DNA of 64,000 bases from Pseudoalteromonas shioyasakiensis (GTDB lineage: Bacteria; Pseudomonadota; Gammaproteobacteria; Enterobacterales; Alteromonadaceae). Below are positions 58,696 to 61,162 of this stretch, piece by piece. How positions within the stretch are numbered: position 1 is the stretch's first letter; each line of letters opens with the position of its first letter. Made by a program: the position numbers and the translations under genes. Below the pieces are notes generated by a model that saw only the letters and a program-made list of their open reading frames with translations, was not told the DNA's origin and searched no databases. The stretch is from the NCBI RefSeq assembly GCF_001550135.1, contig NZ_LRUE01000016.1, positions 62,001 through 126,000 of the forward strand, given 5' to 3'.

Positions 58696-59223
58696 ATGGC
58701 ACAACACGATTACATAAATAAAAAACCAGCAAATCGAAATAATAAAAAACAAGCCCCGGCGAAAAAGCCCTTCCCTATTATTCTTGTTTTAATTGCGCTT
58801 ATCTTAGTAGGCGGGTTTGGTTACGGCCTATGGTATATCAAACATAATGCTGATCCTGAGTTAGTAGAGCAGCAAGCAAACCCGACTAAAAAAGAAGAAG
58901 TAGTTATTCCACCACCTAAGACACCTGAATTTATCAAAGAGATTAAAGAGCACGAAGTTCAGGTTGAAGTAAAAGAGATTGAACAAAAAGGCCCATATGT
59001 AATGCAATGCGGCTCTTTTAGAACATTAGAGCAAGCACAAACATTAAAAGCTAAAATCGCTTTTGCCGGCTTAGTGGCCGAAGTTAAGAAAACACAAGGC
59101 AGCAATGGTGTTTGGTATAAAGTGCGCTTAGGCCCATACGAAACCAAACGTTTAGCCGAAAGTGACAAGAATAAACTTAAACGCATCAAAATAATGGGCT
59201 GCGGAATTTGGCTTTGGACTTGA
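58696..59223 (+). CDS. ftsN: Cell division protein FtsN-like SPOR-domain protein
   Basis: A 175-residue bitopic protein: a basic cytoplasmic N-terminus (NKKPANRNNKKQAPAKK), a membrane helix (about 27-47), a short proline- and glutamate-rich periplasmic linker and a C-terminal SPOR domain (about 98-172, YVMQCGSFRTLEQAQTLKAK and VRLGPYETKRLAES). FtsN triggers septal wall synthesis. It is much shorter than E. coli FtsN (319), mainly in the linker. Position between priA and hslV supports the name. Confidence 0.92.
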   Translation: MAQHDYINKKPANRNNKKQAPAKKPFPIILVLIALILVGGFGYGLWYIKHNADPELVEQQANPTKKEEVVIPPPKTPEFIKEIKEHEVQVEVKEIEQKGPYVMQCGSFRTLEQAQTLKAKIAFAGLVAEVKKTQGSNGVWYKVRLGPYETKRLAESDKNKLKRIKIMGCGIWLWT

Positions 59224-59244
59224 TTTTAGTTCATTCACCCATAT
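59219..59244 (+). promoter_or_regulatory. Putative heat-shock (sigma-32) promoter of hslVU
   Basis: CTTGAT at 59219-59224 and CCCATAT at 59238-59244 are separated by 13 bases. This closely fits the sigma-32 consensus (CTTGAA, 13-17 bases, CCCCATnT). hslVU is a sigma-32 operon in E. coli. The -35 element overlaps the ftsN stop codon. Confidence 0.8.
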
Positions 59245-59249
59245 AAACA

Positions 59250-59298
59250 CCTCATCAATCGCTTTTTACGAGCGGCCTTGCCGCTCGATGATGAGGAA
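59250..59298 (+). promoter_or_regulatory. hslVU 5' leader hairpin pairing with the ribosome binding site
   Basis: An inner perfect 7-bp stem, CGAGCGG (59269-59275) with CCGCTCG (59281-59287), sits inside an outer 8-bp pairing of CCTCATCA (59250-59257) with TGATGAGG (59289-59296). The outer strand includes GAGG of the Shine-Dalgarno GAGGA seven bases before the hslV ATG. Pairing would hide the ribosome site. E. coli hslVU is reported to have a conserved leader stem-loop; whether this one acts as a thermosensor is inference. Confidence 0.7.
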
Positions 59299-59303
59299 TA
59301 ATC

Positions 59304-59822
59304 ATGACCACTATTGTAAGTGTACGCCGCGACGACAAGGTCGTTATTGGTGGCGACGGCCAAGTTTCACTTGGTAACACCGTAATGAAGGGCAACGCCC
59401 GCAAAGTTCGACGTCTTTATAATGGCAAAGTAATCGCTGGTTTCGCTGGCGGTACTGCTGATGCCTTCACCCTTTTCGAACGATTTGAAAGCAAACTAGA
59501 AATGCACCAAGGCAACTTAACCAAAGCTGCCGTAGAAATGGCCAAAGATTGGCGTAGTGATCGTGCACTTAGAAAGCTCGAAGCACTATTAGCAGTTGCA
59601 GACGAAACTGCTTCATTAATTATCACAGGTAACGGTGATGTTGTGCAGCCAGAAAACGACCTAATTGCGATTGGCAGTGGTGGTAACTTCGCACAATCAG
59701 CAGCCACAGCGCTACTAGAAAACACCGACCTAAGTGCACGTGAAATTGTAGAGAAAAGCCTAACGATTGCAGGCAATATCTGCGTATTCACGAATAATTT
59801 CCAAACTATTGAAGAATTGTAA
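59304..59822 (+). CDS. hslV: ATP-dependent protease peptidase subunit HslV
   Basis: The proteasome-like peptidase of the HslVU protease. The 172-residue protein becomes active when the initiator methionine is removed to expose T2 ([20 protein letters not shown]). The [13 protein letters not shown] and [17 protein letters not shown] blocks are typical. It is followed 11 bases later by hslU, and is preceded by a heat-shock promoter and a leader hairpin. Confidence 0.98.
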
Positions 59823-59833
59823 TAGGAACTGCC

Positions 59834-61162
59834 ATGTCTGAGATGACGCCAAGAGAAATCGTTCACGAGCTTGATCAACATATTATTGGCCAAGCTAAAG
59901 CTAAAAAAGCAGTTTCAATCGCGCTACGTAACCGCTGGCGCCGTATGCAACTGAGCGATGATTTACGCGCAGAAGTAACGCCTAAAAACATTTTAATGAT
60001 TGGTCCAACTGGTGTGGGTAAAACTGAAATTGCACGCCGCTTAGCTAAACTTGCTAATGCGCCTTTCATTAAAGTTGAAGCAACAAAGTTCACCGAAGTG
60101 GGCTATGTTGGTAAAGAAGTAGAAACGATCATCCGCGATTTAGTTGATATCTCAATTAAAATGACGCGTGAACAGCAAACCAAAAAATTCAAACATCGCG
60201 CTGAAGAAGCGGCAGAAGAGCGTATTTTAGATGCTCTTTTACCACCAGCACGCGATACCTTTGGTGAGTCAAAAACAGAAGAGAACTCTTCTACTCGTCA
60301 ATCTTTCCGTAAAAAATTACGAGAAGGTCAGTTAGACGATAAAGAAATTGATATCGATGTTGCACAAGCTCAGCCAAATGTTGAGATCATGGCTCCTCCT
60401 GGTATGGAAGAAATGACCAACCAGCTTCAGAGCATGTTCCAAAACATGGGTGGCGATAAGCGCAGCAAGCGTAAGCTAAAAATCAAAGAAGCGTTTAAGC
60501 TATTGGTTGAAGAAGAAGCAGCAAAACTTGTTAACCCTGAAGAGTTAAAAGAGCAAGCTATCTTCGCAGTAGAGCAAAACGGTATCGTGTTTATCGATGA
60601 GATCGATAAAATCTGTAAACGTGGTGAAGCATCAGGCCCAGATGTTAGCCGTGAAGGTGTACAGCGCGACTTACTTCCTCTAATCGAAGGTTCAACAGTA
60701 AGCACTAAACATGGCATGGTTAAAACTGACCACATGTTATTTATCGCATCTGGCGCATTCCAAATGTCTAAACCATCAGACATGATCCCAGAGCTACAAG
60801 GTCGTTTACCAATTCGCGTTGAGCTTGAAGCACTAAGTGCTGATGACTTTAAACGTATCTTAACTGAGCCTCATGCTTCATTAACTGAGCAACAACGTGA
60901 GCTGTTAAAAACAGAGCAAGTTGACGTTGAGTTTACTGATGATGCCATTGAACGTATCGCGAAAGCGGCTTGGCAAGTAAATGAGAAAACCGAAAACATC
61001 GGTGCCCGTCGCTTGCACACAGTGATGGAAAAACTAATGGAAGAAATTTCATTTGATGCCTCAGAAAAAGCAGGTTCAACACTAACAATTGATGCCAATT
61101 ACGTTGAGCAGCATTTAGGTGCACTCGTTGAAGATGAAGACTTAAGTCGCTTCATTCTTTAA
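59834..61162 (+). CDS. hslU: ATP-dependent protease ATPase subunit HslU
   Basis: The AAA+ unfoldase that feeds substrates to HslV. The 442 residues include the Walker [13 protein letters not shown] (near 57), the pore motif in [11 protein letters not shown], the intermediate I-domain (about 110-240), Walker [12 protein letters not shown], the sensor region and the C-terminal tail LSRFIL that inserts into HslV. Length matches E. coli HslU (443). Confidence 0.98.

Follow-up and report, generated by a model that had tools for sequence, protein, structure and literature searches.

A heat-shock promoter of hslV that may also provide the 5' strand for a helix hiding the Shine-Dalgarno sequence in read-through RNA of Pseudoalteromonas and its relatives

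INTRODUCTION

RNA thermometers such as ROSE and fourU keep the Shine-Dalgarno (SD) sequence base-paired in the leader of a heat-shock gene, and in the case of the IS10 and IS50 transposases, it is read-through RNA coming from outside that sequesters the ribosome binding site. The late promoters of phage T4 gene e are located within the 5' strand of an inhibitory helix, and the late transcripts escape this helix (PMC3014915). A lock on the SD in an hslVU leader or a sigma-32 promoter was not found in the titles and abstract beginnings of the open-license papers listed.

Here, the region upstream of hslV is analyzed in 64,000 nucleotides of Pseudoalteromonas shioyasakiensis DNA, and this whole stretch is called the window. 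In RNA entering from ftsN, and only there, the heat-shock promoter of hslV probably also serves as the 5' arm of an SD-hiding helix.

RESULTS

The hslV locus and its sigma-32-type promoter

In a profile search, the gene upstream of hslV stayed slightly below the cutoff of the ftsN profile TIGR02223 (105.2 bits, cutoff 107.65), with its SPOR domain matching the Pfam entry above the cutoff, and the HslV protein was identical to that of Pseudoalteromonas lipolytica, the nearest named genome (Table 1). Since the stop codon of the ftsN-like gene is inside the −35 element and no terminator was seen between both genes, read-through into hslV would be expected.

TABLE 1 Features of the ftsN-hslVU region, as positions of the window
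Feature	Position	Strand	Remark
ftsN-like gene, SPOR domain	58696..59223	+	Co-directional upstream neighbor of hslV
Stop codon TGA of the ftsN-like gene	59221-59223	+	Within the hslV −35 element
−35 element CTTGATT, sigma-32-type promoter	59219..59225	+	CTTGAT is 59219-59224
−10 element ACCCATAT	59237..59244	+	CCCATAT is 59238-59244, 13 nt after CTTGAT
Likely heat-shock RNA start (predicted)	59252..59254	+	8-10 nt past the last −10 base
5' (anti-SD) arm CCTCATCA	59250..59257	+	Overlaps the discriminator and the likely start
5' bulge ATCGCTTTTTA, unpaired, 11 nt	59258..59268	+	Separates outer from inner helix
Inner hairpin CGAGCGGC-CTT-GCCGCTCG, 8 bp	59269..59287	+	Covaries in the clade
3' arm TGATGAGG	59289..59296	+	Holds the SD GAGG, 59293-59296
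hslV	59304..59822	+	ATG at 59304; NF003964 and TIGR03692 above cutoff
hslU	59834..61162	+	TIGR00390 above cutoff

The initial annotation of this DNA had read CTTGAT-13-CCCATAT as a near-consensus heat-shock promoter, and this promoter is present. From 280 hslV loci, L032 (short flank) as well as L250 and L260 (start not found) were left out, and 274 of the resulting 277 leaders reached at least 13.5 on a sigma-32 matrix, the three leaders without the promoter being L035, L067, and L259. Both elements, a CTTGAAA-like −35 and a CCCCATNT-like −10 sequence, are conserved among the relatives. On the first version of the matrix, with weights based on the E. coli consensus, the window promoter scored 17.5 compared to 9.7 ± 1.7 for shuffled leaders, one of which reached 17.6. 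The spacer is short: CTTGAT and the complete 8-mer ACCCATAT are separated by 12 nt, 1 to 3 nt less than in the other genera scored and one nucleotide under the range of the consensus CTTGAA-N13-17-CCCCATNT (PMC4263515). Judged from its sequence and conservation, a sigma-32-type promoter at hslV is supported.

For E. coli, a promoter between ftsN and hslV is tabulated in a section on the stationary-phase sigma factor in PMC5493296. The same two-base deletion, in the C-run of the hslVU sigma-32 promoter, occurs in two heat-evolved E. coli strains, and the authors discuss its effects on the promoter and on the translation rate (PMC10044804).

Position of the transcription start

The 228 unique hslV leaders formed 82 clusters. 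A pyrimidine-A step was located at +8 past the −10 element in 26 of 29 dnaK leaders, at +8 (14 of 29) or +9 (15 of 29) in the groES leaders, and, among the 82 hslV clusters, at +8 in 43 and at +9 in 27. Position +8 of the window is T59252, and a C-A step at +9/+10, invariant in 33 aligned leaders of the clade, leads to A59254 at +10. The heat-shock RNA likely starts at 59252 to 59254, as indicated by these steps. Leaders of the lipolytica type possess a further C-A step at +4/+5, and several others possess one at +6/+7. The 5' arm straddles the likely start, so that a start at 59249 would include this arm in the transcript.

Folding of the window leader

A pairing of the leader with the SD had also been proposed and was recovered: CCTCATCA is the exact complement of TGATGAGG, which covers the SD of hslV, and the RNA from 59250 to 59310 folded with −24.2 kcal/mol compared to −11.8 on average for its shuffles (z −4.36, equaled by none of 200 shuffles). 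The inner stem, given initially as 7 bp, exists but comprises 8 bp (CGAGCGGC/GCCGCTCG).

With a start at 59248, pairing of the modeled SD bases never fell below 97% at the ten temperatures between 10 and 50°C, and the same was true for starts at 59249 and 59250 at 10, 28, 37, and 45°C. In foldings that included 30 nt of the gene, the SD was about 2 to 4% unpaired for starts up to 59250 and 94 to 97% unpaired at 28 to 37°C for starts from 59252 onward. When 20 nt of the gene were used, single SD bases were 21 to 62% unpaired for starts at 59253 and 59255, and a start at 59251 gave conflicting SD states in the 20-nt and the 30-nt foldings. The model predicts a shut SD for RNA beginning at or before 59250 and a mostly open one for starts from 59252 onward. 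In the absence of the outer arm, the model also predicts a small hairpin (59288 to 59305) with the SD in its loop, a fold that is favored by an extra T before CATG found in the lipolytica-type leaders.

The proposed dual control, by sigma-32 and by heat melting of the leader, is supported with respect to a sigma-32-type promoter and an SD-hiding pairing but not with respect to melting, because the fold remained closed from 10 to 50°C.

Covariation within the genus and the clade

The genus set contained 109 Pseudoalteromonas leaders from 108 genomes, of which 106 could be scored. A looser criterion for the arm was passed by 75 of the 106, and in 48 of the 106 a CCTCATC-type arm faced a GAGG SD. 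The outer helix did not covary in the genus, contrary to what the initial annotation would have required of relatives: compensatory changes were absent from all 48 arm-carrying leaders, 8 of the 48 had a T-T mismatch, and others had lost an end pair or gained a wobble pair. Depending on the sub-clade, the arm starts 3 or 6 nt past the −10 element, with the complementarity being kept. By its distribution among these leaders, the outer, SD-hiding helix is clade-specific within the genus. The inner hairpin was paired in 98.9% of the cells across 33 distinct leaders of the clade, and 30 cells had changed on both sides compared to 7.5 after shuffling, with none of 500 shuffles being as good.

Complementarity of promoter and SD across relatives

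In the wider family, the pairing between SD and promoter changes in step, and the 5' arm is located in promoter DNA. This was evaluated with a swap test, in which the duplex of the promoter region with the SD/start region was compared, per cluster, between own and permuted partners. The full promoter region of the 82 hslV clusters yielded a z of −7.3 (0 of 20,000 permutations). When the promoter was cut to −26 to +7 around the end of the −10 element, which leaves out everything from the footprinted start onward, own partners were still better than swapped ones (z −6.2, 0 of 20,000); these z values, like all those from the swap test, are not exact probabilities since the permutations treat the clusters as independent and ignore kinship. 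The cut promoter gave a z of −4.6 in 19 Idiomarinaceae-like clusters, −3.1 (31 of 20,000) in the remaining 63 clusters, −3.8 in the 51 clusters without Idiomarinaceae and Pseudoalteromonas, and −2.9 in 11 Vibrionaceae-like clusters. The 12 Pseudoalteromonas clusters alone gave no swap signal with the cut promoter (z +0.4). The median z of hslV subsamples of 28 was −4.3.

Windows covering the −10 element and the discriminator gave the strongest signal of the 5' arm, and a weaker one occurred at +19 to +23. Some signal was also present in the part of the hslV leader that follows the start (z −2.9, 42 of 20,000); the leader-segment value of groES was not used because empty segments had been scored. 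An earlier, unclustered swap test with 76 of 80 named loci had resulted in −7.9 for own and −6.9 for swapped partners, and an earlier clustered one with 72 of the 82 clusters had resulted in a z of −5.3, the ten short leaders being restored later.

In the genomes of the Idiomarina type (groups g28, presumably Idiomarina, and g11, which we take to be Aliidiomarina-like) and in group g26, which we place only near Idiomarina, the SD, at times plus the start codon, complements the −10 element or the spacer. A 15-bp helix of spacer and −10 element with SD and start codon was present in g26, counted on 18 of 22 unique leaders, with the unaligned L210, L223, L224, and L249 left out. In this helix, 83% of the cells were paired compared to 31 to 47% when the arms were slid; the covariation score was 0.154 versus 0.111 after shuffling and the number of cells changed on both sides 8 versus 3.0 (0 of 500 shuffles in both cases), and two of the five measures did not stand out from the shuffles (246 of 500 each). 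Because the 5' arm of g26 is in the spacer and −10 element, a sigma-32 transcript cannot contain it.

Single leaders showed other arrangements by eye. A perfect complement of 11 to 12 bp to the SD region is located at the −35 element in L241 and directly after the −10 element in L236. A compact, attenuator-like hairpin with a T-run between the heat-shock start and the SD was flagged by the terminator scan in the L007 cluster only, and similar ones were seen in L008-type leaders. Two hslV matches per assembly occurred in G049 (L111 and L120), which is 9% contaminated, and in G155.

Other heat-shock genes and their upstream neighbors

The swap test was also positive for clpB (19 leaders, z −4.3, 0 of 20,000) and htpG (28 leaders, z −3.9, 2 of 20,000), and the cut promoter gave no signal in 29 groES leaders (z +0.42) and 29 dnaK leaders (z −0.35). 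As controls for all five genes, an upstream segment against the SD was null (−0.6 to +1.3), and the promoter against the coding region ranged from −1.7 to +2.1, with −1.7 for hslV. Complementarity between promoter core and SD is family-wide in hslV, clpB, and htpG and does not extend to groES or dnaK. For these comparisons, 29 of 30 loci each were available for dnaK and groES (28 for groES in the accessibility count below). Starts of clpB were found in 22 of 30 loci and used in 20 at first, later found in 21 and used in 19; those of htpG were found in 1 of 30 with the first pattern and in 28 with a wider one, without the window genome's own locus, L378.

In the window genome, clpB is located 98 nt behind pgeF and dnaK has a divergent neighbor, which fits a lock against read-through. 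The gene groES is located 143 nt behind fxsA and has no lock despite this upstream gene and no detected terminator, and htpG (L378) has a divergent neighbor here and was unscored, so that this rationale is incomplete.

Accessibility of the SD

The energy needed to open the SD decreased by at least 3 kcal/mol from the long to the sigma-32 RNA in 32 of 82 hslV clusters, 6 of 19 clpB leaders, and 11 of 28 htpG leaders, compared to 0 of 28 groES and 2 of 29 dnaK leaders. When the assumed start was moved through −20, −12, −8, 0, +4, +6, +8, and +10, the number of hslV clusters with such a gain was 2, 6, 13, 22, 24, 28, 32, and 33 of 82, respectively, reaching a plateau at +8. For E. coli (L072), the difference between long and short RNA was not clear and no clear lock was predicted; for Kosakonia L070, the representative of the enterobacterial cluster that includes E. 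coli, the energy dropped by 4.8 kcal/mol.

Terminators as a replacement for the lock were rejected, since they were predicted in 4 of 33 locked and 5 of 34 unlocked clusters (Fisher p = 1, with 15 intermediate clusters left out). The terminator scan did not set the five genes apart either (clpB 0 of 19, htpG 2 of 27, groES 0 of 29, dnaK 1 of 29, hslV 9 of 72). An abutting ftsN tail tracked the hslV lock weakly (19 of 34 versus 14 of 48, p = 0.052), and upstream partner motifs as predictors of the lock failed at htpG (p = 0.26) and clpB (p = 0.49). An SD scoring, the IWxW tail, and the RecR and PgeF motifs were used in the analysis.

DISCUSSION

The position of the 5' arm in promoter DNA across the family favors a lock acting on read-through RNA over a thermometer. 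RNA polymerase would read from ftsN into hslV, and in this longer RNA, the copied promoter is predicted by the foldings to pair with the SD and to shut translation. The sigma-32 RNA would start within or after the arm and thus drop the part covering the SD, keep the inner hairpin, and leave the SD free. We infer that such read-through RNA is made, that its translation is blocked by the pairing, and that the protease is thereby tied to heat shock. In a more general form, for which we judge the chances to be even, internal sigma-32 promoters of Alteromonadales and some relatives would carry in their own −10 element, spacer, or discriminator a sequence antisense to the SD of the gene under their control, as a device shared by hslV, clpB, and htpG, with the choice of the promoter deciding about translation.

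An RNA thermometer would require that the sigma-32 transcript holds both arms and that heat melts the outer helix to expose the SD. This would suit a heat-shock gene such as hslV, the SD is indeed fully paired with a start at or before 59250, and the C-A step at +4/+5 of the lipolytica-type leaders could act as such a start. Nevertheless, the modeled fold with the arm does not melt between 10 and 50°C, the 5' arm of the relatives often falls on the spacer or the −10 element, neither of which can be part of a sigma-32 transcript, and no thermometer family of Rfam matches the region 58800 to 59900 up to an E value of 5. The folding results together with the position of the arm in the relatives led to the rejection of the thermometer, which we consider very improbable. 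A DNA inverted repeat, with the arms as half-sites of a dimeric regulator overlapping the promoter, appears slightly more improbable still. Half-sites of a dimer are also inverted copies of each other, so that both arms could change together, but the sequences of the arms differ widely among related genera, their spacing varies while one arm covers the SD, and the helix contains G-U pairs, which are accounted for by RNA pairing and not by a DNA site.

An ordinary leader hairpin deserves more weight, although it is still unlikely. Only the inner hairpin would count, for expression and mRNA stability, a role described for E. coli clpQY (RF02401), and the overlap with the SD in this clade would be incidental. 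The strong covariation of the inner hairpin, the match of the E. coli and Yersinia leaders to RF02401, the missing swap signal of the Pseudoalteromonas clusters taken alone, and the signal of the hslV leader past the start are all in agreement with this explanation. It leaves unexplained why the SD complements the promoter across families and also in clpB and htpG, and why this complementarity is absent from groES and dnaK. The lock on read-through RNA is the preferred reading.

If the lock exists, one promoter starts the heat-shock RNA and, when copied by a passing polymerase, silences the gene behind it. Stress genes behind housekeeping genes could stay quiet without a terminator, and comparing promoter and SD sequences would be a test usable on any internal promoter.

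Among the known systems, RNA thermometers of the ROSE and fourU type differ from the window, where the fold does not melt over the modeled temperatures and the heat-shock transcript does not clearly include the 5' arm. The protection of IS10 and IS50 serves mobile elements and not stress genes, different from the case of hslV. The ClpQY_promoter family RF02401 of E. coli clpQY/hslVU likewise describes a hairpin near the SD in the leader of this gene; different from the window, the E. coli SD is outside of the hairpin and no clear lock is predicted there. RF02401 did not match the window region 58800 to 59900 up to an E value of 5, and among seven loci scanned, it matched only E. coli L072 and Yersinia L047. 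Closest are the early-transcript hairpins of phage T4 gene e, and also of soc, 49, and I-TevI, where longer RNAs from upstream hide the ribosome binding site as proposed here. A promoter as the 5' strand of the SD helix, as in T4, was found family-wide by the swap test, and in the window, the arm is on the discriminator and the likely start and not on the −10 element itself; an SD hidden in the long RNA and free in the promoter-specific RNA was found in the folding model only. Unlike gene e, the lock proposed here would involve a cellular sigma-32-type promoter and heat-shock genes of Alteromonadales. The geometry of the lock was already known from T4 gene e, and the new part is the family-wide link of the promoter core with the SD.
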